NCBI GenBank assembly: GCA_030537355.1
Contig: JAUNNF010000001.1
Span: forward strand, 141,026 to 205,025
DNA from: Coriobacteriia bacterium
Lineage (GTDB): Bacteria > Actinomycetota > Coriobacteriia > Coriobacteriales > Eggerthellaceae
Length of the DNA stretch: 64,000 nt
Direction of reading: 5' to 3'
Shown: positions 15,762-53,184 of the stretch, in pieces
Layout: every line of letters starts with the position of its first letter
How positions within the stretch are numbered: the first letter of the stretch is position 1
Translations under genes and position numbers: made by a program
Notes under the pieces: model-generated
Database searches by the model: none
What the model was told of the DNA's origin: nothing
The model's input: only the letters and a program-made list of their open reading frames with translations

Positions 15762-17060
<1,299 letters not shown>

Positions 17061-18248: not shown

Positions 18249-18273
18249 TTTTTCCTCCTTAAAATCGTGTAAA

Positions 18274-18281: not shown

Positions 18282-18300
18282 ACTTGAAATTGGAGGATTA

Positions 18301-31363: not shown

Positions 31364-32294
31364 ATTTAATATTTTTGGCTAATTGCTCAAGCCTTCTAAC
31401 TCTACCACTCATAGCAGACTTTGAGAGTGGAGGGTCTGCCAATGCTCCTAATTCAGATAGCGAGGCTTCCCTATTTTTAATTCGAAGGAGAATAAATTCT
31501 TGTAATTTTGGGGATAAATTTTGTAAGCCATAATGGGTAGCAACTTTTTTAATCATTAGAAGTTGATCGAATGCCGCATCAATAGTTCTTCTCGAATTTG
31601 CAATATCTGCATTAACTCGTCTGTTTTCCTCGTTTGCAATACTTTTATAAACTCGCACCTGTTCCATATCAAGAGCTGCTTGATGCGCACCAGAAAAAGC
31701 AAGAAAATCTGCAATCCCTTGGCCGCTTTTAATATATAAGATATGTTTGTTTCTTCTCTGACAAACACCAGCTCGAATATCTTTTTTCTTCAAAATGAAT
31801 TGCATATCACGAGCTTGCTCTCGGCTCTCAACAGAAATCTCAAAATGAAAATCCCCTTGAGGCTCAGAGACATAACCAGAACCTAAAAAAGCGCCTCGCA
31901 AATATGCGGCACTACAACATTCTTTTTCCTTAAAATCTTTCTTGATGCCTTTGCATATATTTCCGATACTTCCCTCAATAATTCCCATATCTTCCATTGC
32001 AAAAACCAATTTTGGACCTTGAAGCAAATCGAGAAGATAATTAGGAGTGTTGTGAAGCACGCTTCTACGAAAAGCAAGCTCAGTATCAAGATCGTAGACT
32101 CCTCTAAAATTTGCGAGGGCAAAGCGCGCGATACTCGCATTATCAGTTACAAACTCAACGCTGTACTTTCCGCCTCCGTGAATTTTGAGTGTGCCTTGAC
32201 TTTTAACAAGAGCTGAAAGCATAGCTTTTGAACATGACTCACACTCTGGTTCAACATGAGACAATTCTTCTTTAATGACAGTTGTAAAAGACAT
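31362..32294 (-). CDS. whiA: Sporulation/cell-division regulator WhiA
   Basis: DNA-binding protein of 310 residues, normal for the family. The N-terminal part resembles a LAGLIDADG endonuclease fold without catalytic residues (CSAAYLRGAFLGSGYV), and the C-terminal part is a helix-turn-helix (LSELGALADPPLSKSAMSGRVRRLE). WhiA is conserved in Gram-positive bacteria and in Actinobacteria controls division genes. It starts 3 bp after the rapZ stop without a clear ribosome-binding site, suggesting coupled translation. yvcK, often between rapZ and whiA, is absent here. Confidence 0.95.
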   Translation of the reverse strand: MSFTTVIKEELSHVEPECESCSKAMLSALVKSQGTLKIHGGGKYSVEFVTDNASIARFALANFRGVYDLDTELAFRRSVLHNTPNYLLDLLQGPKLVFAMEDMGIIEGSIGNICKGIKKDFKEKECCSAAYLRGAFLGSGYVSEPQGDFHFEISVESREQARDMQFILKKKDIRAGVCQRRNKHILYIKSGQGIADFLAFSGAHQAALDMEQVRVYKSIANEENRRVNADIANSRRTIDAAFDQLLMIKKVATHYGLQNLSPKLQEFILLRIKNREASLSELGALADPPLSKSAMSGRVRRLEQLAKNIK

Positions 32295-32297
32295 GAG

Positions 32298-33356
32298 CTA
32301 ACGATTGATTGGAGGCCATGCACCTGAAGTGCCTGGATTAGTTTTTGGAATATTACCTGATTTACCAGAAGCTTGTGCAACAGCCATCTCAAGATCCCTA
32401 TGTGCAATACTTACCCTGTATGCACGAGCTTTTAGATAGTCTCCAGTAATCTCAGCAATTGTCACGCTTCTATGTTGACCACCTGTACATCCAATAGCAA
32501 TAGCCAATTGCTGTTTGCCTTCTTTAACGTACCCTGGTATTAAAATATCAAGAAGCGCAAACCACTTTTCTAGAAAATTTTGAGTTTCTTCTCTTGCCAT
32601 TACAAAATCATGAACTGGAGCATCCAAACCTGATAGCGGACGCATATCTGGATCCCAATATGGGTTTGGAAGAAAACGAACATCTATGACAAGATCTGCG
32701 TCATAAGCAGCACCATTTTTAAAACCAAAGGAATAAACTGTTATAGACAATCCTTCCATTTGTTTATCAGCTTTAAATAAAGTTCTCAAATTAGTGCGAA
32801 GCACCTGTGGCATTGTATTGGTTGTATCTATCACATAATGTGCCATCTCGCGAATGCTATAGAGAAGTGCACGCTCTTTCTGAATACCTTGAGCAATAGT
32901 CTCGCCACTATTACACATAGGATGACGTCTACGAGAAGATTTATAACGAGCAATAAGTTTATCATCTGAAGCATCAAGAAAAACGATACGATAATCAACA
33001 TCCATTTCCTCGACTTTTAGGATTTCATCACGAAGAGAACCAAAGTAATCACCGTTGCGTGCGTCGCAAACTACAGCAAGTTTAATGTGCTCTTTGCTTT
33101 TCTTTTCAACAGCAACTGTGTTTGCGAGCATAACAGCTGGTAGGTTATCAATACAGAAATAACCAAGATCCTCAAAAACATGCATGGCCTCAGTACGTCC
33201 ACCGCCACTAATGCCAGTAATAACTATAAGTTCTGGCATATTCTCGGCACGTAACGCATCAACTTGAGCAGCTTTTGAATAAGCAGCTTCTTCTTCCTCA
33301 GCTGCTCGAGCATCTGGGGCTGCGGCTATTGCCTCATCTGTACTCATTTTTTTCAT
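32298..33356 (-). CDS. rapZ: RNase adapter/nucleotide-binding protein RapZ
   Basis: The 352 residues include an N-terminal acidic, Ala/Glu-rich extension of about 40 residues not usual for the family, then a P-loop GISGGGRTEAM in which Arg replaces the Walker Lys, as often in actinobacterial homologues. The C-terminal domain has DVRFLPNPYWDPDMRPLSG and IGCTGGQHRSV. It binds nucleotides; the adapter role for small RNAs is known in Escherichia coli, but the role in Actinobacteria is less clear. ATG 33356 lies 6 nt after a TATAAT and has no Shine-Dalgarno. A later ATG at 33347 (MSTDEA) is the alternative. Confidence 0.94.
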   Translation of the reverse strand: MKKMSTDEAIAAAPDARAAEEEEAAYSKAAQVDALRAENMPELIVITGISGGGRTEAMHVFEDLGYFCIDNLPAVMLANTVAVEKKSKEHIKLAVVCDARNGDYFGSLRDEILKVEEMDVDYRIVFLDASDDKLIARYKSSRRRHPMCNSGETIAQGIQKERALLYSIREMAHYVIDTTNTMPQVLRTNLRTLFKADKQMEGLSITVYSFGFKNGAAYDADLVIDVRFLPNPYWDPDMRPLSGLDAPVHDFVMAREETQNFLEKWFALLDILIPGYVKEGKQQLAIAIGCTGGQHRSVTIAEITGDYLKARAYRVSIAHRDLEMAVAQASGKSGNIPKTNPGTSGAWPPINR

Positions 33357-33399: not shown

Positions 33400-36300
33400 T
33401 TAATTAGAAAATTTCTTTTCCATTACAATATAAAACAAATCATCCATAAAATGTGAATCACTGTGCCATGCCCTGACCCACTCGCCTGAAGTCTTATTAA
33501 CATGGAATATATCTACAAAGCCATCATCACCTTTTTGCGTAGACCATAAATCTATATGATCACTATTAAAATATGTATTGATGATCTCATTTACAGAAAT
33601 TCCTTCAATTTTTGGAGGAGTTTTATCTGCTGGCTTATCCATTGTTAAAGTTGTACACTCTTCTTCATTAAATTTCTTGCCTCTGTAATCATTCGCTTGT
33701 AGGTCTTCTCCAAACGCATCCATCCATGATTCATTAACAAGCCTTATGGCATTAAAACTAACATCGTTATCCATAACATAATATAATACATTTTTCAGAT
33801 CTTTTATATGGTAAACACTGCCATCTTCAGGAATAATTATATTTCCGTCATAATCATAAAATTTAATTTTGCTGAAAGGTAGTTCTTTAAAAACAGGTTT
33901 ATAATTGTAAATTTTTCCATCATAAGTATAATTTAAAGATGAAAGTTCTTTTGTGGTTATAGTAATATTTTGCGATGACCCATCAACAGTTGAAGCAATA
34001 TGATAATAAGCATTTTCATCAGGCAGTACTTCTGTGCCATTATATGTTACATGAGAAACCCCATAACCAGGCTTTGTTTCAATTTTAAATTTATAATCAG
34101 AATTTGTTAACAAACCGAATTCATCATGAACTATATGCCCTTGAGAATCAGTTACGTTTAATACGCCATCGTCTTTATTTAAATAAACTTTATTGACTGG
34201 AAAATCACGAACAATAACAACATCGCACATTTCGTCTTCGTCATCATGAACATTGCCTTGTATATGATTTTCTATGCAATTCCAAGCATAAGCATAATAA
34301 TGGAAATACCAATCTGCATATTTACAGTAATTAGACCAAAATAATCCTTTATCTGTTCCAAATCCTACATTTTTATAGGCATTATAAACAGACGTTAAGC
34401 CTATACCATTTATAAGAGGTTCAGATTCTACATTATTTGATTTGTAAAAAATTAAAACAGAATCGCCACTGATTAAGTTATTATTAAATCCGTACTTACA
34501 ATTGTCTCGAATGAGCTCGTCTTCTTTCTCAAATTTATATACATCATCCCATTTTACAGAATTTACGCTTCTGACAGCTTGAAATACTGGATATGCATTA
34601 TCCACAGCAGTAAATTGTGTTGCTTGCTGCAAATCAGAAAGAACATATTTATTGTTTAGACCAGTAGGTTCCAATTTGTTTCCATTTGAATCAAAGAAAA
34701 TAATTTCATCAGTTGATAAATTATTTGCTACAGGATGATATAGATATTTATTATCAACAATCAATGAAATTGTTTTATAAGAAACAACTTCTATATTCGA
34801 ATTATTATAAACTTTTTTAACAGTATAAAAGCCATCAGAGTCAGGGCTTGTTTCTTGGCCATTAATTGTTACGAAATTTTTGATATGCTCAGGCTTGAAT
34901 ACAACTTTAAAACGAAAATCTTTACCAGATAGAGCTTCAATGTTTTCGTTTATAGGATTATTGTTCTCGTCAACAATACTGCTAACACCATCATCTTTAC
35001 TGAAATTAAAAGTATAGGAATTTTTAAATTCTCTTAAAGCTACAACTGATTTAATATCCGTTCTAGGATTTACGATCCATTGACCACTTGGATTGGTCTC
35101 ATTAAATTCAAAAGCTGCAGCGACGTTTTCGTTATATGATTCATTACCCCAAAAACTATTTTCATTAATAGAATATATATTTTTAAGTTCTAGTAATTCA
35201 TGATTTTGTATAATAGGCATCGTTCCTACAGCCATATCAAGAGAAACACATCTTGTGGCTCCATCTATGTCTCCAGCTAAATATTCATTAGCTACACCAA
35301 TAGTTGAACCAAATGCCTCATCCCAAGTATGAGAAATCATACCTACTGCTTTAAAATCATATTTACCATTAGCGCTAAACCTTACAGCATCTTTTAAGTC
35401 TGCCATTCGATATGACAAACCATTAACTGGCTTAATATACTCACCTGATTCATTATAAAATTTTACTTCAGATACGCTTAAACCGTTATCGTCATCTATA
35501 ATCGGCCTATAAATTACGTCGTTAACCTTTAACGATACAGTTTTTAATGACGTAGTTTCAACATTTAAAGAATTTTGTATAGCTGAAGTGTTGGCAACAA
35601 TACGATAATAACCATCGGCATCTGGCTTTACTTCTTGGCCTGAAAATGTGATGGTGTTTTTAACATAATCATCATTAAAAATAGGCTTAAATCTGATTTC
35701 TTGTCCAGGTAATACTTTTACAATATCAGATAGCGTCTCACCATTATCATCTACAAAACTATTAACGCCCTCATCCTTATTAAGTTTTATATCTAAAGAT
35801 TTTTTAGAAGAAAAGGTCGTTGATATTAAAAAGGAAGCTACAGAGCTTTTATCTTGTTCGAATAGCCATTCGTATTTCATATCATACATAGCAGCTTTAT
35901 GAATATCTACTGAACAAGGAGACCAAAATGCATTGTCAGAAAAATAAGCATTAACAACTTCATTAATTGACCTACCACTTATATATGGTGTTTGTCCTAC
36001 TTCAAAATTTAGTGAAGCACAAGATTGATTGCTGTCTAATTCAGGAAGATATTTTGGTGCATTAACTTTGCTATCTATATCACCAAATGCATCAATCCAT
36101 GTTTTTCTATCTACACTAACTGCGTCAAAAGAATAATCGTCAGCAACAAATTGTGTAGCGTTAGCTAAATCACTTATTTTATAGCTATAACCATTATTCC
36201 CAGTAGGATGAATGAAACAATTATTATTATCGTAAAACTTAATCTGAGGAAATGATAGATATTCGAACACTGGATGGAATATTTTATCTCCAACCATTAA

Positions 36301-39300
36301 CGACTTTGATTCTGCAGATTTAACAACAATGTTTGTATCTTCATTTATACGAGGAACAACATAAACACCTTCAAAATTTGGATATATATTTGTTCCGTTG
36401 CAATATACTTCATTAACTAAGTAGTTATCTTTTGTATTGACTTTAAACTTAAGATTTGTTCCCGCCGAAAACTTATCTAAAAATGGAGAATCATCAATAT
36501 TCGTACCGTTGAGATCAGTTATTTTTTCAATATTTTCATCATAAGAAAAATTAATATTACAATTTTTACCACTAAAAGTACGATCGAATAACGTTGAAGC
36601 AGTATTGTTCTTAGATTCTTTTCTGAAAATACCATGTCCACCAAATACCCAAGCAGAATCATCAACACTATCAGAAGTCCAGCAATTACAATAATTTGAG
36701 AAGTATACAATACTTATTAAAGTTAAAGATACGTCTCTATCGTTAATGTCTTTAATATTTATATCTTTAGAATCTTCCGAATAATGGAAACCTAATGAAG
36801 TACAATTTTCGCCAAAATTCATTTGACCATTATATTTTGTTGCAATATCTTGTTCAACATTGCCATAAGTTTCAGACCACTTATCTCCAGTTTTAAGACG
36901 TACTGCCTTAAATTGGTATGTATCTTTTGCGATATATTGTGTAGCATTTTTAAGATCTTCCATATTATATGAATCACCATAACCCTTAGGAGGTAAATAA
37001 TGTCCGCTTTCATCATAAAATTTAATATCACTTGTTTTAGCTTGCCCATAAGCAAAAATTGGATGGTATAAGTCGTCATTAATACGAAGCGGCTGAGTCT
37101 TTTTGTATGTCACTGTAATGTTAACATCGAGTACTGGACTATTTAATCTATAAATATTGTCGTATGGAACAATCTCAGTCTCGTTTGCATACACCTTATC
37201 TATTGCATATCCATCCTTAAGTTTTACGCTAAATTTAAAATCATTAGATCTTGGATTTTGAACTGTCTGATTAAGTGTATTACCTGATGGATCAATAAAA
37301 CTATCAGTTGCTTCTGACTTTACAAAATTTATATTTTGTGGGCGACTATTAAATTGTCGAGATACGACCATAGCACATCCACCATCTACATCAAGGCCAA
37401 TTCTGTTATCTGTTTCAGTTGTATAACTATTAAAATAATAAGCATAGTGGAATGCAACCCATATGGTACCACGAATATGGTTAGTCCAAAAATGGAAAGT
37501 ATTAAGTAGGCCAAATCCAACTTTATTATATGCTTCATATATACGATTAAGTGGGACAGAATTTATTGTAGGCATTTGAGGCATGTCATAGTGTTTGAAA
37601 AAACAAACATTATCGCCAGCATGTAGCTTAGCTTTAAAATCATCTTGCAGGTCAAAAATGTCACCATTATCAGCATCCTTATGATCAAATATATTTTCCC
37701 ATTCGGATTCTATTATAGACCTAACAGCTGTAAGTGAAAAATTTGGAATGTCACTATCATATTGAGTGGCACTAGCTATATCTGACATAACATAATATCT
37801 ATATCCTTTTGCATCAGGAACTTCATCACCGTTTGCTTTTAATAAATTACCCTTCGCATCGTAAAATCTTATATCTTTAGAAGATAATTTATCAAATACT
37901 GGATGATATAAATCGCCATCTGCATAAAGAGATTGTAGTACCTTAGTTGTTTTTGACTGAGTTTTAACTGTAATCTCAGAGTTTATGTTCACAAGTCTAA
38001 AATATCCATCTGATTCAGGTTTTAGTGTATGATTATTGATAATTACTTCATTAGTAAATCCAGCTAGATTTACAACTTTAAAACGAAAATCAGATCCATA
38101 AGGCACATTCAAAGAATCATTAATTACATGACCTTTATCATCAATGAATTTTTCAGCACCAATATCTTTAGAAAAATGAATCTTAGGAGTATTGGTAATC
38201 TTTTTTGAAATGACAATTGTTCCTTGTTGAGTTCTCTGTATATTTTGCCACCATTCTCCTTTGGTTGCTGTTTCTGGATATTTATAGCAATACGTAAGAT
38301 CTTGTGAAATAGTTTCATTTCCTAAATATAAATCATTTTCAAAATTATATGATGTTTTTATTTCGTCAAAAGAAATATCGTCAATTTTTACTTTATTTTT
38401 TCTGTTAAATGCAAGATTTTCACAAGAGTCATTACAATCTAGATCATCATAAACATAACTAGTAGCTATTTCTTGTGTATCCTCACCAAATGCTTCATCC
38501 CATGAGTGATCAAGAAGTCCTATAACTTTAAATGCCGAAGGATTATATGTAATAAACTCTCTTGCATCTTTTAAATCACTCATAATGTAGCTAGTACCAT
38601 TATCTTGAGATGGTTGAATAAAATGGCCATTTGTATCATAAAACTTTACATCATAAACAGATATATTTTTAAATACAGGTTTATAAATCAAGTCAGGATG
38701 TTTTGACGTCTTGGAAGATTTTAAAGAAATCGATTTAGTAGAGCTTATGTTAATAATCCGTGGTCCAATAATATTCTCAATAGTATAAGAATTGTTTTCT
38801 TTATCGTAATTAAGAATGGAAGCGCCATCTTTAACAGAATTTTCTACATAACCATCCTTATATTGTACATGGAATGTAAAATTAGAACCCTTTTCATCGA
38901 CAGTATATGGAATTCCGCATTTAACGTTGTTGCCTTGATCGTCAGTAATTTTTTCAATTCCTTCATCTTTATGAAACTCTACTTTACATGCTGGATCAGC
39001 CTTGCCAAATTCCCTAGTAACAGCCAAACAACATCCATTAGGGACTTCATCACCTATATGAATATCTTTGAAATGACATACCTCCCTGGAAGAATCATAA
39101 CTGTCATAATAATAAGTATGATGATATAGGTCACCTTGAAAATTAATGTCATTGGTCCAAAAATGGAAAAAACTATTATTACCTTGCTTTATACCAAAAC
39201 CAGTGTTTTTATATGCTTCGTATATACGGCCTAGAGATATCGAGCCTATTGAAGGAGATTCTTTGCTTGTGAAAAAATGAACAGTATCATTACTATCGAT

Positions 39301-40450
39301 ATTTTCTTGCCTAAATTTATCTTGTAGCTTTGTAACATTTCCATTACCTATACCGTCACGATCAAAAGTATCTTCCCATTCTAAAGGAGTGGTCACAGAC
39401 CTTACAGCAGTAATTTTTACGTCAGCTTTACTTAATATTTTATACTTTGTAGCATATGCAGTGTCACTCATGACATAATCATTGTAATCAAAGCCAAGAT
39501 AACGTTTTGAAGCATTTAAGCATTGTCCATCATTATCAAAAAATCTTATATAAGGAAAACCTTCAGTATCAAAAACCGGATGATATAAACCTCTATTAGT
39601 CATAAAAGAATTAACATAAGTAGTTTTTATCTTAACAACATGTCCTGTTGAATCTGCATGATTAACATTCTTTAATGTATACTTTAAAGTATCGTTGTTA
39701 ACTATTAAATCACTTAAATCATTCTCGTTACCATTAATAGAAACTTCAGCTTGCTGAACTGATTCAGTGCCTCTATCATCAAGACATTTAATTTTGAATT
39801 CAAAATTTTGAGAATCTTTTAAAATCATTGCTCCGTTTGTAATATCTTTGCCGTTAGCATCAACAATTTGTTTTACTCCATCATCAGCCTCAAATTTGAC
39901 ACTATATACATCAGAAAATTCATGCTGAATCACAGCATTATGACTCTCTCCGTTTGAATCGGTGTCTCTAAAGCCAGAATCCTTTGTATCTGATAAATGA
40001 AAAACATAAGAATTGTCATTATCTAGGACATCTGGATACCAAAAAATTCGTTCGTCCAGATTATAAGCCCTAACGAAATCTCCCAAATAAACATCATTTA
40101 TAATAGGCATGCTGTTTTCATTGTCAAAAGAAAGAGTTGAACAGTAATCTCCTGTAGCCAATCTACCTTTGTATGATGTTGCTTTACCATCCTTAACACC
40201 ATCAAAAAAGTTTTTCCATGTATCATTGTCAAATCTTATTCCTTGAAACTTATAACCAGTACCTGTGTAATAACAAACATTTTTTAAATCTGACATAACA
40301 TAATCATGTCCGTAGTTAACACTTGGCCAAATCAATTTACCTTCATTGTCATAAAACTGAACTTGATCAAAAGACAGAGTCTTAAAAACAGGGCGATAAC
40401 TAAAATTCTTATGATTTTCCCTTATTTTTAGCATATTTGCTTCTTGAGAA
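33400..40450 (-). repeat. Nine tandem modules in giant protein 1
   Basis: Part A FYD-G motifs fall near 40355, 39545, 38655, 37870, 37025, 36245, 35465, 34705 and 33875, a spacing of about 780-890 bp. Copies are diverged in DNA but clear in protein, which indicates old duplication under selection. Confidence 0.85.
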
Positions 40451-42432
40451 ATTATTTGAACATTTTTATGAGTTGATATGTTGTTAATGGTGTAACAATT
40501 ATCATGATCAGGCTTAATAGTTTCACCATTGACCTTTACTTCTTTTATGATATAAGGCTGCCACTCATTATATTTTACTTTAAATTCAAAAGAGTCATTT
40601 AGCATTACCTGATGAAAATCAGATATTTCATTACCATTTTTATCAGTTATTTCAAATACGTGTTCATCTTTATCAAAATTGATATCAAATTTTGTTTGTT
40701 TGTCAATATAAATACAATGCAAGCCATATCGATTGCCAACTGTAAAAACGCCATTATCATATTTAAGTTCATTAATTCCATCATAAACTCGAGGTACGGA
40801 TAAACTATCTTTCATTACTACTTTGAATTTAAAATCAGGATCATAATTAAATAATGTATTATTAAAGTATGTTTTATCTCCTGTAATGTTTGTTACTTTT
40901 TCAACAACAGAATCATCATAATCTAAAAAGCATAAAGATTCATGTTGAGCCTCAGGACTATTTTTACTTAAACTAAAATATCCTGGATTGCATTTACCTT
41001 CGTCAATACGAGCAAGTCCACCGTAAATATTTGCAGCATTGTAAGCTGTTCTATTTTGTCCAACCAAAGAAGTGCAGGCAGCAAACATATTGCTACTCTC
41101 CTTAACGGTTTGCGACCAATCTGCATCAAATCTAGTATCAATTGTAGTTAAACTAGAACATCCGCTAAACATATCAGCAGTATAATTAATATGAGCAGAC
41201 TCTTCATTATTTGATAAATCCCATTTTCCTAAATCAACATAAGTTAATTTTTCGCATGATTGAAAAGCTGAAACTGAAGAAGAAACTGTATTAGCAATAA
41301 CAGAACCATCTTTTTCGACATATAAAGAAGTACCATTCTCTAACATGCTAGAAGCGTCAACGGTTTTTAAATTATGGCACTCGTAAAATATTGCAGTAAT
41401 AGAATATATAGGATGACCAAATACTACATTATCATTAAAACTCTCAAGAGCGCTTCTAGAAAACATAGAAGAGGCATTTTCAACTTTAGGAAGCACAATA
41501 TTTTTAGATTCAAATTTAGTAAGGTTACTGCATAAAGAAAAAGCATATTGGCAATTCTTAAGAACATCACTATTAGAAAGTTTTGTCAAAAACATATCTA
41601 GTGTATTTTCATCCAATCCAGTGTCAATAAACATTCCAGCAGCATTTTCTAGAGATTTGAAATAATTTGAATTTGCTTTAATATAATCAATATCTGCTTC
41701 GTTTAATGATTCTAATGATTTAGTACCAGAGAACATAAAAGCTGAATTTACAACTTTATCCATATTTATATATTTAAGCCCTGATATTGATTTAAGAGAC
41801 GAATAAGAAAAATCTGAACTATCAGAAACATAAGAACCGAACCATTGCATGGTAGAAATTGGATGAAAAAGTCGAACACTATTTTCAATTTCAACACTTG
41901 TTATCTTGCTAGAATAATCTTTACAATATCCAGGGACGCCAGTATCTGTATCTTTGATAATAAACAATTTTTCATAATTATTTTCAGATGGTTCATTTGC
42001 ACTAAGAACTAAATTATACTGATTTGAACCGTCTTTTATAAGAGTAGCGTAAATCTGATGACACTCAAAATCTAATGGATTATCGTTAGGATCAGATTCT
42101 CCAGATCCACCTGGTTCGACATCAGTTTTTTGTTCTTGAGTAGACTGTTCATTTAAAAGCTCAATAGACTTATTTATATATCCAGGTATATTATCTAGTG
42201 TTTGACGAGAAGGAACAGCATTAAATACCTCATCAGCACTTTGTGGAAGTGATCCCGCTTTTTCAATAACAGGAGATTGAGCAGGTTGATTACTTTCGTA
42301 ATTTGCTTCTTCTGACACGATAGAATTGTCTACTTCATTTTGGTTAAAATAATTAACCCCAAAAAGACAAATGCAACAAAAAACAATAGACAATAATGAA
42401 ACAATTGCTATTTTTACTTTTACGTTTTTCAT
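33400..42432 (-). CDS. Giant BspA-like secreted repeat protein 1
   Basis: The 3010 residues start at the ATG at 42432, which has GGGAGG 7 nt upstream. A signal peptide spans residues 1-30. After a low-complexity linker, residues of about 185-490 form a DUF285/BspA-type leucine-rich region with cysteine-bearing units such as MFSGCSSLTTID. From about residue 670 to the end run nine modules of about 260-300 residues. Each has a part A with F(Y/F)D..G, a DL..AT.F motif and a conserved FW, and a part B with DEGI.KI.D..G and FRFKV. No LPXTG, GW or S-layer anchor is visible, and the protein ends at a module boundary. Likely a long adhesin or polymer-binding surface protein. It is collinear with the next giant gene. 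Confidence 0.9.
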   Translation of the reverse strand: MKNVKVKIAIVSLLSIVFCCICLFGVNYFNQNEVDNSIVSEEANYESNQPAQSPVIEKAGSLPQSADEVFNAVPSRQTLDNIPGYINKSIELLNEQSTQEQKTDVEPGGSGESDPNDNPLDFECHQIYATLIKDGSNQYNLVLSANEPSENNYEKLFIIKDTDTGVPGYCKDYSSKITSVEIENSVRLFHPISTMQWFGSYVSDSSDFSYSSLKSISGLKYINMDKVVNSAFMFSGTKSLESLNEADIDYIKANSNYFKSLENAAGMFIDTGLDENTLDMFLTKLSNSDVLKNCQYAFSLCSNLTKFESKNIVLPKVENASSMFSRSALESFNDNVVFGHPIYSITAIFYECHNLKTVDASSMLENGTSLYVEKDGSVIANTVSSSVSAFQSCEKLTYVDLGKWDLSNNEESAHINYTADMFSGCSSLTTIDTRFDADWSQTVKESSNMFAACTSLVGQNRTAYNAANIYGGLARIDEGKCNPGYFSLSKNSPEAQHESLCFLDYDDSVVEKVTNITGDKTYFNNTLFNYDPDFKFKVVMKDSLSVPRVYDGINELKYDNGVFTVGNRYGLHCIYIDKQTKFDINFDKDEHVFEITDKNGNEISDFHQVMLNDSFEFKVKYNEWQPYIIKEVKVNGETIKPDHDNCYTINNISTHKNVQIISQEANMLKIRENHKNFSYRPVFKTLSFDQVQFYDNEGKLIWPSVNYGHDYVMSDLKNVCYYTGTGYKFQGIRFDNDTWKNFFDGVKDGKATSYKGRLATGDYCSTLSFDNENSMPIINDVYLGDFVRAYNLDERIFWYPDVLDNDNSYVFHLSDTKDSGFRDTDSNGESHNAVIQHEFSDVYSVKFEADDGVKQIVDANGKDITNGAMILKDSQNFEFKIKCLDDRGTESVQQAEVSINGNENDLSDLIVNNDTLKYTLKNVNHADSTGHVVKIKTTYVNSFMTNRGLYHPVFDTEGFPYIRFFDNDGQCLNASKRYLGFDYNDYVMSDTAYATKYKILSKADVKITAVRSVTTPLEWEDTFDRDGIGNGNVTKLQDKFRQENIDSNDTVHFFTSKESPSIGSISLGRIYEAYKNTGFGIKQGNNSFFHFWTNDINFQGDLYHHTYYYDSYDSSREVCHFKDIHIGDEVPNGCCLAVTREFGKADPACKVEFHKDEGIEKITDDQGNNVKCGIPYTVDEKGSNFTFHVQYKDGYVENSVKDGASILNYDKENNSYTIENIIGPRIINISSTKSISLKSSKTSKHPDLIYKPVFKNISVYDVKFYDTNGHFIQPSQDNGTSYIMSDLKDAREFITYNPSAFKVIGLLDHSWDEAFGEDTQEIATSYVYDDLDCNDSCENLAFNRKNKVKIDDISFDEIKTSYNFENDLYLGNETISQDLTYCYKYPETATKGEWWQNIQRTQQGTIVISKKITNTPKIHFSKDIGAEKFIDDKGHVINDSLNVPYGSDFRFKVVNLAGFTNEVIINNHTLKPESDGYFRLVNINSEITVKTQSKTTKVLQSLYADGDLYHPVFDKLSSKDIRFYDAKGNLLKANGDEVPDAKGYRYYVMSDIASATQYDSDIPNFSLTAVRSIIESEWENIFDHKDADNGDIFDLQDDFKAKLHAGDNVCFFKHYDMPQMPTINSVPLNRIYEAYNKVGFGLLNTFHFWTNHIRGTIWVAFHYAYYFNSYTTETDNRIGLDVDGGCAMVVSRQFNSRPQNINFVKSEATDSFIDPSGNTLNQTVQNPRSNDFKFSVKLKDGYAIDKVYANETEIVPYDNIYRLNSPVLDVNITVTYKKTQPLRINDDLYHPIFAYGQAKTSDIKFYDESGHYLPPKGYGDSYNMEDLKNATQYIAKDTYQFKAVRLKTGDKWSETYGNVEQDIATKYNGQMNFGENCTSLGFHYSEDSKDINIKDINDRDVSLTLISIVYFSNYCNCWTSDSVDDSAWVFGGHGIFRKESKNNTASTLFDRTFSGKNCNINFSYDENIEKITDLNGTNIDDSPFLDKFSAGTNLKFKVNTKDNYLVNEVYCNGTNIYPNFEGVYVVPRINEDTNIVVKSAESKSLMVGDKIFHPVFEYLSFPQIKFYDNNNCFIHPTGNNGYSYKISDLANATQFVADDYSFDAVSVDRKTWIDAFGDIDSKVNAPKYLPELDSNQSCASLNFEVGQTPYISGRSINEVVNAYFSDNAFWSPCSVDIHKAAMYDMKYEWLFEQDKSSVASFLISTTFSSKKSLDIKLNKDEGVNSFVDDNGETLSDIVKVLPGQEIRFKPIFNDDYVKNTITFSGQEVKPDADGYYRIVANTSAIQNSLNVETTSLKTVSLKVNDVIYRPIIDDDNGLSVSEVKFYNESGEYIKPVNGLSYRMADLKDAVRFSANGKYDFKAVGMISHTWDEAFGSTIGVANEYLAGDIDGATRCVSLDMAVGTMPIIQNHELLELKNIYSINENSFWGNESYNENVAAAFEFNETNPSGQWIVNPRTDIKSVVALREFKNSYTFNFSKDDGVSSIVDENNNPINENIEALSGKDFRFKVVFKPEHIKNFVTINGQETSPDSDGFYTVKKVYNNSNIEVVSYKTISLIVDNKYLYHPVANNLSTDEIIFFDSNGNKLEPTGLNNKYVLSDLQQATQFTAVDNAYPVFQAVRSVNSVKWDDVYKFEKEDELIRDNCKYGFNNNLISGDSVLIFYKSNNVESEPLINGIGLTSVYNAYKNVGFGTDKGLFWSNYCKYADWYFHYYAYAWNCIENHIQGNVHDDEDEMCDVVIVRDFPVNKVYLNKDDGVLNVTDSQGHIVHDEFGLLTNSDYKFKIETKPGYGVSHVTYNGTEVLPDENAYYHIASTVDGSSQNITITTKELSSLNYTYDGKIYNYKPVFKELPFSKIKFYDYDGNIIIPEDGSVYHIKDLKNVLYYVMDNDVSFNAIRLVNESWMDAFGEDLQANDYRGKKFNEEECTTLTMDKPADKTPPKIEGISVNEIINTYFNSDHIDLWSTQKGDDGFVDIFHVNKTSGEWVRAWHSDSHFMDDLFYIVMEKKFSN

Positions 42433-42462
42433 GGCTTCCTCCCAAGATTTACACACTATTCT

Positions 42463-42491
42463 ATTATACACTAAATTTAATAAAAAAGCAA
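42463..42491 (-). promoter_or_regulatory. Consensus promoter of giant gene 1
   Basis: -35 TTGCTT (42491 to 42486), 17-bp spacer, -10 TATAAT (42468 to 42463). The ATG follows 30 nt later behind a GGGAGG site. One of the best sigma-70 promoters in the window. Confidence 0.75.
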
Positions 42492-42524
42492 ATCTAATCT
42501 GGGAAACACTCTATTCAAAATTTA

Positions 42525-42547
42525 TGCCCCGCAATAAATACGGGGCA
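42525..42547 (-). terminator. Terminator of giant gene 2
   Basis: Stem TGCCCCG / CGGGGCA with a 9-nt loop, 27 bp after the stop of giant gene 2, followed by TAAATTTTG on the minus strand. It separates the two giant genes into two transcripts. Confidence 0.75.
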
Positions 42548-42574
42548 CAAAAAATCACTTTATTTTCTTGTAGA

Positions 42575-45500
42575 TTATCTACTTCCTTTGGCAACTATAT
42601 CAATATTGTTGTCTATACTAAAAACATAATAATAACCGTTTTTATCTGGCCTTAAAATTTGATTTCCCATTTTCACTTGTCTTACAAAATGGCCAGGTAC
42701 TGGTACAACTTTAAATCTCAAAGAAGAATTCTTAGCAACACTTATGCTGCTAGGTAATTCTTTTCCGTCATCTCCAATAAATTTATCAATGGAATGAGAA
42801 TTATTGTCTTTTAGCATATTAATCTGAACATTATCTGACTCCAATTTATTCAAATTGGTAGTATTTTTAAACTCTCTTTCAAAAACTACGCAGGCATAAT
42901 AATTATCTTGACGTTCGTCCATATAATCAATAAAAGTCCAATTACCTTTTGGAGATGAAGGCTTATATACATCAACAGTAGCATTCGACCTCTTGTTTGG
43001 TAAAATCAATGGATATTCACTGCTATACTTTTCATGATAAACAGGGAAAATTAAGTCTGCAGAAATACCGCAAATTTTTGGAGCCAAATCACCTTCTTTA
43101 CTAATATTCAAAGTAGAGAGCACTTCGTCAGAATATATAGGATAAATTTTATCACCATAAGCCTTGTATTGTTCGATGCTAGCCTCAAAGGCATCACCAA
43201 AAGCTTGCTTATACGACAACCAACCTGTACGTACAGCTTTAAATGTAACATCATCATCCATTACATAATTTGAAACTTTTGATGATAGATCGGTAGTATG
43301 ATATACACCATTTTCTCCTGGTAACATTAAATTATTATTATTATCATAAAACTTGATCTTATTAAATGATAGTTCTTCAAAAACAGGCTTATATTCAATA
43401 TCTTTATCTCCATGCTTTATTGTAAGTGAAGATGGTTTTGCGCTTTTTGCAGAGACAAATCCAGAAAACATAGGTTTTGCTGTATACACACCTTCCGAAC
43501 TTGGTATAAGCTCCTCTTCATTACACATTATATGACTACCAACAAAACCATTTTTAAATACTACTTTAAACTTACAATCATTACCTGAGTAGAGATTAAT
43601 AGTGCTTATAGTTTGACCATCCAAATCAGTGAATTTTTCTATACCATTGTCCTTTTCAAAATTTAATGTAATTGTATTAGAAAAAGTTCGAGTAATAAGT
43701 ACGTCTGAGGATCCACGATACGGACTATTTATAAATTTTTGCTGATTAATATCCCATAAGATTCCCTGATAATTATCGCCCCCGTCATTATATTCACAAC
43801 TGTTTGACCAAAATCTTTTGTTTTTGCCAAAATTTGGATCATCTTTATACGTATTCCAAATATCAGTAATTTTGACATTGTCAACTTCTGGCTCATTAAC
43901 TGGTTTTGCATCTTTATTAAATATAAAAACAGAATCTCCGTTTTCTAAAGTATCTTTAAAACTTTGTTTAGCATCAGAACGAATTTGGATTTTTTTTACT
44001 TCTTCAAAATCATACACAGTATCCCATGAAACACCATTTACACTCCTAACAGCAGTAAAGCTAAAATCAAGATTTAATAACAAATATTTTGTTGCTGGTG
44101 TTAAATCAGACATAAGATAATATTTATAACCTACTGTCCCTGGAACCTCTGATCCTGTAGCCTCTAATAAATTATCATTGTCATCATAAAATAATATATC
44201 TTTGTTTGATAAATTATTCGAAACTGGATGATATTTATCCCTACCAACTTGTAAAGAAATTTTACTACCATCCATTTGAGATTTTGCATCCACTAAATAT
44301 GAGGAATTAATACTGGCAATTGTATAAAAACCATATTCGTCTGGAATAGCTGGTTTATTGTATATAGATAATGATTTATGTTTGTATTTATCTTTGTAAA
44401 CTACCTTAAAACGCAAAGAAGTATCTGAATCAACATTATATATTTTTGGTAATTCTTTACCAGAATCGTCAACAAACTTTTCTATACCATCATCTTTTGA
44501 GAAATGAACATATGATTGTTCTGTAAATTCTTTTTTTATTAAAATTGGTAAATTGCTTGTTCTAGAACGAACATTATCCCAATAGCCATCTGGATGTTCT
44601 GAATTAAATCGATAAGAATATGCAGTATCATCTTTTGACTCGTTACCCCAAAACTCACTGATATTTAAGAAAGCATTTTTTATATTCAATAATGGAATAT
44701 TATCCACTTTTGGCAAATTATCCTCTTTATTTAAATCCAAAGTGACGCACTTACAAGAAGGATCAATGTCACCTGCTATATACTCACTAGCTTTTCCTTG
44801 AGTATCTTCACCAAATGCGCTATCCCATGTATGTTCAATAATTCCTACAGCATTGAACTTATAAGTAGATTTATTCAATAACGTAAACTGCGTTGCATAT
44901 TTTAGATCAGACATTACGTAATCGTCACCAGAAGGAGCAATGTAATTTTTTGAATCATCATAAAACCTATAATCATTAGGTGATAACTTATCAAAAAGAG
45001 GTTTATATATAACTCCATTAACATTTAATGAATGAAGTTTACTTGTTGTGACTTCAACATCAATATTGTTGTTTTCTAATAACGAATCGAGCAAAACATG
45101 ATAATAACCATCAAAACCTAAATTAATTTCTTTATCATTGATCTTTACATATTTTATAACTGAATTTTTATTTAAGTTAACTTTAAATCTAATTTCCTGA
45201 CCAGGTATAGCATCAACTTTTTCAGGAATTTCTGAACCCATATGATTTACGATGTTGATAACACCAGAGTCTCTCCTGAAATCAACGTTTATAGTATTCT
45301 TACTTGAAAAAGTTGTTTTAAATAAGAATCCATTATCGTTCATTTTGCTGTCAGTATTTCCCCATCCATCATTTATGTCATACACATATGCATTATTTAA
45401 ATCAACTGAAATTGGAGACCAATATTTAGTTGAAGATTTGAAATAAATATTTGAAATATCACTTAAAGATTTACCGCTGATATAAGGCTTCTGTCCATAG

Positions 45501-48500
45501 TCAAAATTAAGAGCAGTACATGTCTGATTTTGTTCTAAATTTAATACCGTATCTGTTGCTCGTCCTTTGTTAATGAACTTTGAAAAAGTGGTTATCCACA
45601 TATAATTTTTAAAACAAACAGCGTCGAAACAATAGTCTTTTCCATAAAACTGTGTAGCCTCTTCTAGGTCTTCCATAATATAAGTCTTGCCATCATCTTC
45701 AGAAGGTTCTATAAATTCATCATTTGAGTTATAAAACTTAACTTGGTCAACAGAAATTCTATCAAATACAGGCTTATAAACACAATCTCCAAGACTCTCA
45801 GTTTTTACAATAAGAGATTTGAGCTTTAATGTACTCAATTTTACGTGATTTGAATTTTTAATTACACAGGAATCAGCAAGAATATGATAATAGCCATCCT
45901 TACCTAATTCAAGCTCTTGATTGTTAAAAGTATATCTATCTTTAATATAACTTTGATTTAAATAGAACTTGAATTTTATCTCCTGTCCAGGAACAAGAAT
46001 AATATTATTAGGAATTTCTTTATCATTATCATCAACAATCTGTTTTATACCTACATCTTTATCAAAATAAATATAAATTTGATTATCTGTAGAAAATGTT
46101 TTCTGTATTAATATGGAATTTTTTATACTTTTATCTGCATTTTCAATCCAGCCATATTCAATATCATAAAGCGAGGCTCTAGCAGAGTTCATTGAATATG
46201 GCGTCCAAAAAGTTTTTTTATCACGAAAATATGCACTAGTTATATCATCAATAGGGACATCATGCAAATATGGTTTACTGTATTGCAAAAACTTAAGTGC
46301 AGTACATGTTTCATCTAAATTAATGGTAGGGACATATCTTGTTGCAACGCCAGCATCTTTTTCACCAAAAGCTTCTATCCAAGAATTTTCTTTTAAACAT
46401 ACAGACTCAAAAGAAAAGGAATTATCAAGATAGGCAAATTTCGTTGCATAAAATAAATCATTCATGACATACGAATAGCCATTGTTGCCAGTTGGTCGAA
46501 TGTAATTATTATCGTTGTCATAAAAACTTATTTTATTTGCAGGAGCATTATTAAATATTGGATAATATCGTTCTTGCCCCACTATTAAAGAAGAACATTT
46601 AATTGCTTCAATTTTAATAGAAATATTTCCTTTTGGATGGGTAATTATATAAACATTATCAATAGGATTAAACTTTTCATCATTTACATATAGAAATTTG
46701 ACACAATAACCATCTTTAGCTACTACCTTAAATTTAAAATCTGATACAGTAGGATACACAAAAGAGGATTTTAGTTCCGTTCCATAAATATCTGTAACTT
46801 TTTCAATGTTGGCATCTAAACTGAAATTAATATTACTCGAACCATGACCAAACATCCTTTCTATTACTATATCATTTAATGTGCTTTTTATGTTAGTGTT
46901 GAAACTCCAAACATTATCATTTAAAGAATATTCCCAAGCAGTATCTTCTAAAACCTCGTCGGCAGTCCAAAAACTAGTCGTTTGATCAAAATACGCCTCT
47001 TTTATCTTTTTGACATCTACATTTTTATTATCTGCATCAATAATGAGCAAATCTTTTGGTGTTTCTGAATCGTAATGAAAAGTTAAGGATGAACATGAAT
47101 CACCAGGCAACATAGGTTGATTATATATTGTTTTTCCTTCTTTAAAAGCAAATGCATCATACCATGAGTTTTTAACCGTACGTACAGCCTTAAATCTATA
47201 ATCGCCCTCAATTATATATTGTGTAGCAGTTTTTATATCTGCCATTGAATATGTGTTTCCGTCACCCTTTGGATATAACAAATTACCATCTTTATTGTAA
47301 AACTGAATATCGTCGGTTGATGCCTTATCAAAAATTGGGAAATAATCATATTGGTCATATTTTAACAATTCAGAGGTTTTTGTAGTTGCCGTAATAGTGT
47401 TGTCAAGTAAACTACTATTAACTGTAAATATATGAGTAATTTTGTCTTCATGAATAACTGCATCATTAATCGTTACTTTATCAACGACATGACCTTCTTT
47501 ACATTTAACTTTAAATTTAAAATCTTTAGACCTGTAATTTTGAACAGAACTTGGAAACTCTCTTCCTTCTACATCAGTAAAACTTTCAATACCTTCAGAT
47601 TTGTCAAATTTGATCGTCTGTAATTCTGAAAAATTTCTTGTAATAAGAATATCGCCAGGATTATAATTAAAATAAGTAAAAAACAATTCGTTCTTTGCAT
47701 AAGACCAGAAAGAAGCATAATATAACCCATTTGACATAAATTCAGCAAAGTAATAAGCATTACCAAAAAAATACCCAGATTTTAAAAACGTACTATCGTT
47801 ACTATAAGCATTTCTTAATTTACTTATAGGTACTCCATCAATGGAAGGCTCTGTATAGATTACTTTATCCTTAAATAAACAGAAAACAGAATCACCATCA
47901 TGTAAAAGACCTTCTTTTACATCAAAAACAAATTGAATATATTTCTTTTCATCATCTTTGTATTCAAATATTTCATTCCATAGTTTATTACCAATACATC
48001 TTGCTCCCTGAAATGAATAAGCATTATCACATACATATTGAGTTGCAGTTTTTAAATCCTCAAGTAAATAATAATGATATTCTTCATTGCCCTGTACTGG
48101 ATCGCCATGTGCTTCTAATAAATTTCCATTCGCATCAAAAAACTGAATATCTTTAAAAGATAATTTATCTGATATGGGATGATACCAATCACCTTTAAAA
48201 TATAATGATTTTAATAATGGCTGTTGCGAATTTACATTAATTGAAACATGGCTAACAATATTTTTAATGTTAAAAAATCCATCATTGTCAGCGGTAATAT
48301 TTATACCATTGGCAGTTACATTTTTATGAACAAAACCGTTTTTATAAATTATTTTAAAACGTAAGTTGGAACTAAAAGGCACAGAGGTGTTTTCACTAAT
48401 TTCTTGACCTTTATCATCAATAATTTTTAAAACACCTTCATCTTTCTTAAATTCGATATTGGGATTATTCACAAAATTTCTTGTTAAGACTATATTAGTG

Positions 48501-51500
48501 TTATAATCCCTAGAAATTGTTCCCCATTCTATTTTGTCTTTATATGTTACACACATCGTAGCTTTATTGTCGGGGGCATAATTAGACCAATAATATAATT
48601 CATTATTAAAATACAGATTATTTAAATCAATTAATTTGTGATTATCAACCATGGGCTCTTCTTCGGGATTAATATGCAAGGTAGCACATTCATCAAACTC
48701 TTCACGGTCGTCCGCAATGTATTCTTTAGCAGTTCCAGTAGTAGTGTTTCCAAAAGCTTCGTCCCAAGTATGTTTTAAAATTCCTACAACCTTAAATGAA
48801 AAATGTCCTGTTGCAATAAAATCTTTAACATCAGCTAAGTCGTTTATTACATAATTAGTTTCAGAGTCTTGAGAAGGACGAATAAAATGACCATTTTTGT
48901 CATAAAACCTAACTTCATTTACAGAGAGCTTATCAAATATTGGCTTATAAATCATACCAGGATGCTTTGTCCCTTCTGGTAACACTAAGGAATATGATTT
49001 TTGAGAAGAAACATTGACAAAATGCTGGTTTTGTACATTATTAATTACATATGAATTATTATCTTTATTGTACGCAAGAGAAATTGAACCATCTTTAACA
49101 GAATTTTCTACATAGCCATCTTTATATTGTACATGAAAAATAAAATTTGAACCTTTATCAACTGAAACTTTATAATCAGTTATATCTACACCATCATCAT
49201 CAGTAATTTTTTCAATTCCATCATCCGTTTGAAATTCTAATGTGCAAGATGGTTTAGTATTACCAAATTCTCTTGAAATAACCATACAGCATCCATTATC
49301 AATTACATCGTAAGGCTTAACATCACTATTATAAAGAATCCTGGTATCATCATATTTATTAAAGAAATATCCACATTCGGATACATAATTAATAAAAAAA
49401 TGAAATGTATCTTTTATCCCAAAACCGTACTGATTGTAAGCTTCATAGATATCAATAAGCGAAACATCATTAACATAAGGATGATATAAGTAATCAAAAT
49501 AACAAACATTATCATTCTCATTAAGCTTATTCATAAAGCCTTGTTTAAGCTTTTTTACATAAAGATTGGTATTATTCTCTCGATCAAAAACATCATCCCA
49601 TCTTGATTCAGTAATAGATCTGACAGCAATAATATTTGGACTCCCATTTTTAATTTTATACTTTTCTGCATTTGCAACATCACTCATAATATAGTTTTCA
49701 TATTCACCAGGGCGTTGTATGGCCGACAAACATTGGCCATCTTTGTCATAATAAGCATAAGAAGTAAAGTAATGTTTGTCAAATACTGGATGATATAAAC
49801 AATTATCAACAATCAAGGAATTAACATATGTAGTACCTATTTTTATAAGACATCCAGTAGTGTCATCATGTTCTATATTCTTTACAGTATATTTTAATGT
49901 TGAATTATTCAAAGAAAGGTTAGTAAAGTTATAGTTATTGCCACCTATAGAAATTTCTGCTTGCTCTACGTTTTCTGTACCATGATCTTCAACGCATTTA
50001 ACCTTAAACTCAAAATCCTCATTTTTCAAAATTTTTGTACCATTTGTAATATCTTTATTATTACTATCGACAATCTGTTTAACCCCTTCATCACCTTCAA
50101 ATTTAATATTATAATAATCAGAAAATTCTCGTTGTATAACAGCATGATGTTCCATTACTCTATCATTAACAATCCAAGATCCCGATTGTAGTGTATTTTC
50201 TAACATATATACATATACAGAAGATTCATCAAATGTATCCGAGCCCCAAAAAGATTTTACATCTATATTGTATGCTTTAAGTACATCTCCTATAAATACA
50301 CCATCAATTGAAGGCTTATTGTTATCTTTGTCAAAAGATAATGTGGAACAATAATCTCCGTCAAGTAATTTACCATTATATTTAGTAGCTTTATCGTTTT
50401 CAACACTAAATAAATCCGACCACCTACCATTTTCTAGCCTTATTGCTTGAAATTTATAATCTCTACCAATAAAGCTTTGAGCATTTTTTAAGTCTGCCAT
50501 GACATACTCATCGCCATTAATAATGTGCGGCTGAATATACTTTCCTTCATCATCGTAAAATTTTATAGTATTTGCTGACAGCTTTGTAAATACAGGATAA
50601 TAAAAATATGTACTATTCTCTTTTGATAATGTTAACGACTCGGATTCTTGCGAGAATATTTGCACATTAATATTATTGTCAATATTGCTAATTGAATAAC
50701 AATTATTCTCATCTGGCTCAATTATTTTCTTGTTAAATCTGACTTCCTTTATGACGTGTGAATAATCATGATTATATTTAACTTTAAATACAAAATCTTC
50801 ATTAAGAGTTGCAATTGGATTATCTTGCTTATTTCCATCTTTATCAGTAATTTCTATATTATCTTGGTCGCATTCAAAATTAACATTAAATTTTGTCTGT
50901 CTGCTAATATAAATATTATGTGCACCACTTCGCTCATCAACAGTATAAATGTCATTATCGCTCATAAGTTTTTTCACTCCATCATCAACTTTTGGAACAA
51001 AAGAACTATCTTTCATAACAACCTTAAACTGTTTGTAAGCATCACCATGTACAAAAAATTTAGTATTTTTAGGATAAGTTATTTGACCATTAATACTAGT
51101 AACTTTTTGAACTACATTATCATCATAGTCAAAAGAAACAGTAGTTATTTCATTAGAAACCTCACCGACAGGTACCATGTGTCTTACATCAAATAATTTT
51201 TCTATTAGAACACTTAATGGATTTTTTCCATATTCTGAAAAATATATATGGGTTTTAGCATTATAAGCAAAATAATTACCTCCTATATCAGAGTCCTTTT
51301 GTTTAGACCAATAATCATGTTTATCATGCAGTTCGCTTTGATAAGCTTCCCAAATACTATCAATTGAAACTCCGTTTGATAAAGCTGGACGCTCTTTTGT
51401 CATGGTAAAGGATAGTAATTTTTCATCTATAGCTAATTTATTCAAAAACTCCTGAGTTGGTTCACTTGTTTCATGCGAATAAACATCTGCCCATTCAACA

Positions 51501-53184
51501 TTATCATAATTTCTAAAACTAATAAATGATGAAGTTCCACTAAAATATACAGCATCAAGTAGATCACTCATTAAGTAATACGAACCATTTTTTGGGTAAA
51601 TTATATCTTTGTTAGAATTATAAAAAATTAGATCAGCAGGTAATTTATGATTTTCGTCACATACAGGATAATAAAATATCCCATTTTCTATAGGACTTTC
51701 TAAAGAATAAATCGGAGTTGACGGTTTAGAACTTTTTTCACTTAAAGTAAAATAACCAGGTTTATTTTTACCTTCATCAATGCAAGCATAACCAATGTGA
51801 ATATTATTTGTACTATACGTAGTTCTATTTTGTCCTACTAACGCATTGCAACCTAAAAACATATTAATGCTATTTTTGGATATGGTTTCCCATTTAGCAT
51901 CATATCTAGCACAAATTGTAGTGAGCTTACTACATCCATTAAACATGTTATTTGTATAATTAATATGCGCTGCATTTTGTTTGTTAGACACATCCCATTT
52001 GCCTAAATCCACATAAGTTAAATTTTCACAATATTGAAAAGTAGATACAGCTGATGTTACTTCATCTGTAATGCTAGATCCGTCTTTTTCAATATAATAC
52101 GATGTGCCATTTTCTAACATACTAGAAGCATCAACATATTTTAAATTATGACATTTATAAAATATTGACGTAATAGCATAAACACTATTACCAAAAATAA
52201 TATTATTATTAAAACTCTCAAGAGCACTTCTAGAAAACATGGAAGAAGCATTTTCAACTTTAGGAAGCATTATATTTTTAGATTCAAATTTTGAAAGTTT
52301 GCTACATAAAGCAAAAGTATATTGACAATCCTTAAGAATATCACTATTAGAAAGCTTTGTCATAAACATATCTAGTGTATTTTCATCTAATCCAGAGTCA
52401 ATAAACATTCCAGTAGCATTTTCTAAAGATTTGAAATAATTTTCATCAAATTTTATGTAATAAAAATCTTCATCACTCAATGATTGTAAGTATTTTGTAC
52501 CAGAAAACATAAAAGCTGAATTTTTAACCTTATCCGTTTTTAAATATCTGAGTCCTGTTATTGAAGAAAGACTTGAATAAGGAAACTCAGAACTGTCTCT
52601 AACATACGAGCCAAACCATTGCATTGTAGATACAGGATGAAAATTTTCAATACTTTTGTCAATAATTACATTAGATATCTTCGTAGAATAGTCTTTACAA
52701 TACAGAGGAACACCCTCATCTGTATCGTTTATAGGAAAAACAGCATCAAATATACCTTCTTCAGGTTTTTCGGCTGTTAATGATAACTCATATAAATTAC
52801 CGTTCTTTTTTAATCCTGCATAAATTGTATGAATTTCATCAGCTTTAAAAATACCCATAAAAGAGGTCGGGACATTATCGTTAGTGGCTTTTTCATCCTG
52901 TTTTACATTATTATCAAGTAGTTCAATCGATTTGTTAATATACGTTGGTAAGTTATCCAGAGTTTCTTTAGAAGGTACAGCCTTAAACACTTCATCAGAA
53001 CTTTGAGGAAGAACACCGGCTTTAACAACAACTGGAGTTGAATTATTTTCATTATTTAAATTTTTAGATATATCATAATTATATGATTCGCCCTTACTAA
53101 AAGAAATAAAACAAAATGCAAAAAAGAAACATAAAAAAAAGTCAATAATGAGATAATTACAATATTAATTTTCTTGCTTCCCAT
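42575..53184 (-). CDS. Giant BspA-like secreted repeat protein 2, frameshifted in its signal peptide
   Basis: From the ATG at 53184 (GGAGG 6 nt upstream) translation gives a normal signal-peptide start, MGSKKINIVIISLLTFF, then leaves frame at a run of eight T. The long frame (3471 residues from a GTG at 52990) resumes with FFFAFCFISFSKGES and is intact to 42575. One extra T would restore one protein of about 3536 residues. Architecture equals giant 1: signal, linker, DUF285/BspA leucine-rich region, then eleven modules. Compared with giant 1 it has two extra modules, the first and the eighth. No anchor motif is visible. Either a phase-variable surface protein read in its OFF state, or a homopolymer sequencing error. 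Confidence 0.88.
42578..51715 (-). repeat. Eleven tandem modules in giant protein 2
   Basis: Part A motifs fall near 51630, 50560, 49760, 48910, 48155, 47310, 46530, 45745, 44965, 44195 and 43355. Modules 2-7 and 9-11 match modules 1-6 and 7-9 of giant 1 in order, by shared idiosyncratic residues such as GQCL, GHFI.PSQD and PTGNNG. Confidence 0.85.
53134..53141 (-). repeat. Poly-T tract (T8) at the frameshift of giant gene 2
   Basis: Eight consecutive T on the coding (minus) strand, codons 15-17 of the signal peptide. Nine T would join the start codon to the 3471-residue frame. A T6 run lies 11 nt further on. Confidence 0.85.

Follow-up and report, generated by a model that had tools for sequence, protein, structure and literature searches.

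Two adjoining giant genes built from alternating domains

We analysed a window of 64,000 nucleotides from a Coriobacteriia bacterium of the family Eggerthellaceae (GCA_030537355.1, contig JAUNNF010000001.1); the gene content would suit a low-GC member of this class. By translation, its minus strand carries two adjoining giant genes, G1 and G2, whose products have 3,010 aa (counted from Met) and about 3,535 aa, respectively (Table 1). The G1 protein, read from Met 42432, begins MKNVKVKIAIVSLLSIVFCC... Beyond an N-terminal hydrophobic segment and a leucine-rich repeat (LRR)-like region, both proteins consist largely of two domains: part A, of about 171 residues, with 9 copies in G1 and 11 in G2, and part B, of about 79 residues, with 10 and 12 copies. 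The boundaries come from separate iterative hidden Markov models (HMMs) for part A and part B, which detected all copies at E<1e-13, and an HMM made from the G2 modules alone recovers the remaining modules in both proteins. Part B bears the signature DxGxxxxTDxxG...FxFKV, and the C-terminal domain is an A in G1 and a B in G2. A previous sequence-only reading of this DNA had counted nine and eleven modules of 260-300 residues with an extra first module in giant 2, and the HMMs confirm this. It had also taken the A+B pair as the unit; both parts are indeed real, but the array of G1 opens with two B copies, ahead of any A.

The body of G2, from 53164 down to 42575, comprises 3,529 stop-free codons. 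Its sole plausible ATG is at 53184, with a Shine-Dalgarno-like GGAGG upstream, and is out of frame with the body because of a run of eight T (T8) in the part coding for the signal anchor. This run may act as a phase switch, have left the gene with a dead start, or be an error of the assembly; we record it as a candidate phase-variable switch for G2. The same ATG, together with a related gene on this contig that is broken into pieces (s4, see below), would also be expected if G2 were a decaying pseudogene in a shrinking family. We consider this improbable, since more than 3,500 codons of G2 are free of stops, the module positions are strongly conserved, and a homopolymer slip is reversible or possibly an assembly error.

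In the members checked by hydropathy, the N-terminus has a 19-residue hydrophobic core (hydropathy 2.4-3.2), and a convincing cleavage site is absent in most. The C-termini carry no LPXTG, and no S-layer homology (SLH) or cell-wall-binding domain was found in the giants. Because the hydrophobic segments mostly lack a convincing cleavage site, the giants are likely held in the membrane by an uncleaved N-terminal signal anchor. For their retention on the cell, earlier regarded as unexplained, the N-terminal segment offers a likely explanation.

A dispersed family of four collinear giants

The genome (1.51 Mb, 19 contigs) holds not two giant paralogues, as first thought, but four: g3 (3,110 aa, contig C13) and g4 (2,952 aa, contig C7) are collinear with G1 and G2, and together the four carry 38 copies of A, 9-11 apiece. 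Between G1 and G2, 8 of 9 A and 8 of 10 B domains have reciprocal best matches, and every pair is collinear. In a maximum-likelihood tree, the modules branch by position across the proteins and not by protein, with many groups bearing starred support; examples are G1-A1/G2-A2/g3-A2/g4-A1 and G1-A2/G2-A3/g3-A3/g4-A2. Several deep nodes are open and a few g3/g4 pairings are not collinear, leaving the module history only partly resolved. With four collinear paralogues whose modules branch by position, the proposed duplication of an entire multi-module gene, with later gain or loss of modules, is supported. The second extra module of giant 2, previously placed eighth, is either the seventh or the eighth: the A of G1-6 pairs with that of G2-8, and the B pairing points to the B after G2-7.

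The N-terminal regions of G1, G2 and g3 are mutually 63-66% identical, and that of g4 is about 50% identical to each. Since the first three are equally close, G1 and G2 are, judged by these identities, no especially close tandem pair but part of the dispersed family. In all eight same-family genomes compared, uvrC directly adjoins rapZ, whereas here the two lie about 20 kb apart with G1 and G2 between them. The G1-G2 pair therefore arose or was inserted in the present lineage, a recent insertion.

Part A is also the domain diversified by a retroelement

Part A occurs without B in smaller LRR-type proteins of this genome, namely s1, s2 and s4 on the window's contig and t1 and t2 on contig C10, where it stands at the end of the protein. 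Directly downstream of t2 lies a reverse transcriptase (RT) gene (RVT_1 6e-21; motifs IGNICSQ and YVDD), the start of whose frame contains 116 bases that repeat the end of the A domain in t2. Between this template repeat (TR) and the variable region (VR) in t2, 26 of the 44 template adenines are changed, against 2 of the 72 other bases, and those two lie near the 3' end (Fisher p 4.5e-12). The adenine specificity of these differences identifies a diversity-generating retroelement (DGR), with t2 as its genuine target by sequence. The RT most closely resembles DGR-type RTs from gut phages, and no accessory (Avd) gene was recognised on contig C10. The variable region lies at the C-terminal end of the t2 A domain, which is the usual arrangement in C-type-lectin-fold (CLec) targets (PMC10907252).

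On the window's contig, two A domains of s1 contain the template's 19-base 3' segment unchanged, and the adenine bias seen in t2 recurs over three domains of s1 (p 2e-5 to 1e-3), which makes s1 a likely remote target. The retention of both features by s1 places the retroelement in the same organism as the window. The A domains of the giants belong to the same family as the hypermutated A of the smaller protein: the HMM from G2 modules alone matches t2 at 1.5e-19 and s1 at 1.7e-22, indicating homology. With t2 a target and s1 a likely remote one, part A is a scaffold that this bacterium hypermutates.

Three further observations concern the relatives of part A and the RTs. The genes s1 (L033:5612-12727) and s2 (13636-19344) are nearly identical over their first ~370 residues and differ downstream, the mark of a recent duplication with exchange of distal modules. 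The third LRR/A-domain gene of the contig, s4 (L034:212-4809), is split over three frames and is probably a pseudogene. A second, prophage-borne RT on contig C12 (L099:5562-8580) has its own repeat pair (6764-6872/6999-7107, 90% identical), which lies where a tail-region gene ends; it is probably a phage DGR and is unrelated to part A.

Predicted folds of parts A and B

Sequence searches of parts A and B against Pfam, NCBIfam, PHROGs and the PDB returned only sub-threshold chance matches. The AlphaFold2 model of the t2 A domain (pLDDT 96.5, pTM 0.91) has as its top Foldseek match in the PDB the C-terminal domain (CTD) of Legionella Lcl (probability 0.99, E 0.031, 45 columns, 29% identity, 2.4 Å). 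The remaining top matches are mostly snake-venom C-type-lectin-like proteins, with template-modelling (TM) scores to the target of up to 0.47; the Bd2740 CTD is also among the matches, with intimin and InvE lower in the list. Lcl-CTD itself resembles snake-venom toxins and the C-type-lectin-like domains of invasin and intimin, binds sulphated glycosaminoglycans, and lacks the Ca2+/sugar motifs and disulphides of classical C-type lectins (PMC11162425). Likewise, neither an invariant motif of this kind nor a conserved pair of cysteines is present in the A alignment. An AB module (G2 A9 with the following B) was modelled at pLDDT 95.7; in the PDB it best matched SraP and other adhesins, with low TM-scores, and this comparison was set aside as uninformative for A.

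These matches provide strong circumstantial evidence, short of proof, that part A has a CLec fold. Proof is lacking because no PDB match reaches E<0.001. The global TM-scores to C-type lectins are below 0.5, A is bigger than a canonical CLec domain, and the PF07603 (DUF1566/Lcl_C) and PF09603 (Fib_succ_major) profiles find nothing above their curated cut-offs on A. Profile-profile comparison of A with PF07603 and with one PF09603 protein was also not significant, the sole aligned segment being the equivalent FWSS/YWSS strand. Such weak E-values and TM-scores, and the lack of a profile match to known CLec families, would also be seen if A were a new fold, only superficially C-type-lectin-like, that serves as a DGR target in this genome alone. 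However, the match list is dominated by the very classes reported for Lcl-CTD (PMC11162425), i.e., snake-venom lectins, Lcl-CTD, Bd2740 CTD, intimin and InvE, and a genuine DGR variable region sits where CLec targets usually have it, so that we regard a new fold as a poor bet.

The structural matches of part B are phage proteins (83-87 columns, 2.4-3.3 Å, probability 1.0), and several of the listed proteins are named 'bacterial repeat domain'. The PF18998 profile (divergent InlB B-repeat, Flg_new_2) finds nothing above its curated cut-off on B. In profile comparison with the PF18998 repeats of the same genome, an earlier alignment of 4 rows (3 near-identical) gave no match, and one with 7 more diverse rows aligned over the full length (E 2.7e-4, probability 41%). 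Part B, as modelled, thus resembles the small domains of the InlB-B-repeat or 'bacterial repeat' class, differing from PF18998 in its own signature and in having no Pfam sequence match. The module had been called unrecognised, which remains true of its sequence (Pfam, NCBIfam, PDB) but not of its predicted structures, which are C-type-lectin-like for A and InlB-repeat-like for B.

The variable-region-equivalent stretch in the giants

The 19-base 3' segment of the template has no match in the window with up to 3 mismatches allowed. In the giants, the codons at variable positions end in C or T (the NNY signature) in 63% of cases vs. 59% elsewhere, compared with 100% in the DGR products (t2 and the second A of s1), and the GC content of the variable-region-equivalent stretch is 33% vs. 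62% in t2. As there is neither a template match nor the DGR codon signature, the giants are not current targets by these marks. Their modules might be rewritten in trans, given the shared domain family, the presence of remote variable regions in this genome (s1, with its exact template 19-mer) and the remote targets known in cyanobacteria (PMC7517822), but all three measures contradict this, and we give the idea hardly any credence.

Over 10 positional groups, the variable-region-equivalent stretch is 23% identical vs. 43% for the preceding part and 52% for the last strand, and every group shows less identity here than in the preceding part. The stretch also contains the three 10-residue windows of A with the lowest values (0.18-0.23); W, C, H, S, Y, D and N are enriched there and aliphatics are depleted. 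The simplest reading of these patterns is that each module would have its own binding face, and that the faces diverged faster than the scaffolds after duplication.

Proposed function

The giants are probably multivalent surface adhesins or receptors, with an N-terminal signal anchor and many distinct binding faces. They would sit in the membrane by the uncleaved anchor and project through the cell wall, with the B domains as spacers and each A presenting a separate ligand-binding face on its variable-region side. One molecule could then bind several ligands, or a single polymeric one (a host or plant glycan, mucin or another cell), with high avidity. The giants would no longer be, or never have been, DGR targets; their diversity would be fixed in the array, with the small A-domain proteins being diversified fast, and slippage in the T8 tract may turn G2 on and off. 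Apart from the reservations on the fold of A, this interpretation is weakened by the out-of-frame start of G2 in the present assembly, and by the fact that a domain's loops may be its least conserved part whether or not it binds a ligand.

That last point is central to a different explanation, in which the arrays are mainly structural, long stalks that keep the LRR region or a few tip modules off the cell, and the variable-region-equivalent stretch diverges since it is unconstrained. The very long regular arrays and the spacer-like class of B fit stalks well, and loop divergence is the default expectation. But the rest of each A module is conserved in a position-specific manner over the four paralogues, with divergence confined mainly to one stretch; the enrichment of W, Y, H, S, D and N there fits binding faces; and this genome has a DGR that targets the same domain, DGRs being devices that act on ligand-binding faces. 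We therefore think a mainly structural role unlikely and favour multivalent adhesins or receptors. A more specific and rather doubtful proposal is that the giants preserve a fixed set of lectin specificities: DGR-diversified modules would have multiplied into arrays, escaped the retroelement and been retained as multivalent receptors, with the small A-domain proteins as the fast-evolving edge.

Comparison with known systems and distribution

The DGR variable proteins of C-type-lectin fold (Mtd, TvpA, LdtA and the cyanobacterial CLec paralogues, PMC7517822) have the kind of fold predicted for part A, and the A-domain protein t2 is a genuine DGR target. The cyanobacterial paralogues are also dispersed copies without an RT of their own, most often with one C-terminal CLec domain (PMC7517822), whereas the giants have 9-11 copies, most of them internal, which alternate with a second domain and lack the variable-region signature. 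Several variable regions within one gene are known (PMC6642488). Lcl, whose CTD (DUF1566, PF07603) is the best structural match of A, is surface-exposed and lectin-like (PMC11162425), but it has a single such domain on a trimeric collagen stalk, and A is undetectable as PF07603 by sequence and has a longer N-terminal part. The intimin/invasin family has extracellular beta-domain arrays with C-type-lectin-like domains and a role in adhesion; there the lectin-like domain occurs once, at the tip, whereas in the giants it is every second domain, without an outer-membrane barrel. The N-terminal LRR regions of G1 and G2 match TIGR02167 (BspA-like/PARCEL LRR) at 19.7 and 25.5 bits, under the curated cut-off of 30, and s1 is a clear DUF285 protein, which links them to the BspA-like/DUF285/PARCEL surface proteins; the A/B array is outside that family.

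A search for the A domain in 138 family, 397 order and 398 class genomes (overlapping sets) found it in the present genome only. A weak match in a 3,703-aa frame of one genome (G211) proved to be an unrelated MBG-repeat-like protein. The GTDB r220 contigs and IMG/VR, scanned with narrower patterns from the N-terminal region and the DGR-type A domain, gave no match, nor did tblastn of the DGR-type A domain against phages. In the open-access literature we found no description of giant proteins with arrays of DGR-type lectin domains.

Other features of the window

The genes rapZ and whiA (31362-33356) adjoin here; relatives have about 1 kb between them, the usual place of yvcK. A single 710-aa frame at 56035-58167 is an apparent fusion of TsaB, RimI and TsaD, and two overlapping frames at 59780-61134 resemble the halves of a single, interrupted MATE-type transporter gene.

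Table 1. Coordinates of G1, G2, their domains and the cellular DGR (window positions unless stated).
Feature	Position	Strand	Remarks
G1 open frame	33400..42471	-	probable Met start 42432; signal anchor - LRR - B - B - (A B)x8 - A
G1 N-terminal hydrophobic segment	42355..42411	-	residues 8-26 from Met; predicted signal anchor; hydropathy 2.89, no A-X-A-like site
G1 LRR-like region	40957..42249	-	PARCEL/BspA type, below curated cut-off
G1 B1 (InlB-repeat-like)	40702..40920	-	
G1 B2	40450..40686	-	
G1 A1 (C-type-lectin-like)	39913..40416	-	
G1 B3	39670..39906	-	
G1 A2	39007..39609	-	
G1 B4	38740..38988	-	
G1 A3	38200..38703	-	
G1 B5	37954..38184	-	
G1 A4	37348..37932	-	
G1 B6	37108..37335	-	
G1 A5	36571..37089	-	
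G1 B7	36316..36561	-	
G1 A6	35809..36303	-	
G1 B8	35548..35793	-	
G1 A7	35026..35535	-	
G1 B9	34783..35016	-	
G1 A8	34201..34755	-	
G1 B10	33952..34191	-	
G1 A9	33406..33912	-	C-terminal
G2	42575..53184	-	body frame 42575-53164; signal anchor (out of frame) - LRR - A - B - B - (A B)x10
T8 run	53133..53140	-	in G2 signal-anchor coding part, inside hydrophobic segment
G2 LRR-like region	51731..53011	-	PARCEL/BspA type, below curated cut-off
G2 A1	51191..51691	-	extra module, also in g3; groups with DGR-type A domains, support 85/85
G2 B1	50903..51142	-	
G2 B2	50654..50890	-	
G2 A2	50120..50620	-	
G2 B3	49877..50113	-	
G2 A3	49265..49819	-	
G2 B4	49004..49246	-	
G2 A4	48473..48967	-	
G2 B5	48227..48460	-	
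G2 A5	47627..48208	-	
G2 B6	47384..47617	-	
G2 A6	46850..47365	-	
G2 B7	46607..46834	-	
G2 A7	46091..46591	-	member of duplicated pair A7/A8
G2 B8	45833..46075	-	
G2 A8	45305..45790	-	member of duplicated pair A7/A8
G2 B9	45044..45292	-	
G2 A9	44525..45031	-	modelled together with following B, pLDDT 95.7
G2 B10	44279..44512	-	
G2 A10	43679..44257	-	
G2 B11	43472..43669	-	
G2 A11	42869..43405	-	
G2 B12	42587..42826	-	C-terminal
Cellular DGR	contig C10, L035:6682-9823, outside window		target t2; VR 8014-8129, TR 7835-7950, RT 6682-7929

Implications

Known DGR-type lectin domains occur singly and mostly at the protein end. Here, one 1.5-Mb genome has the same domain family both as DGR targets and as 38 non-target copies in four giants, a natural setting in which to compare how one binding scaffold diversifies quickly, through a retroelement, and slowly, through duplication and divergence. 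The formerly unrecognised module becomes a testable binding domain, of a probable CLec-like family that is new to Pfam and did not turn up in searches of ~500 related genomes, and the arrays put dozens of natural A variants on offer for ligand screening.

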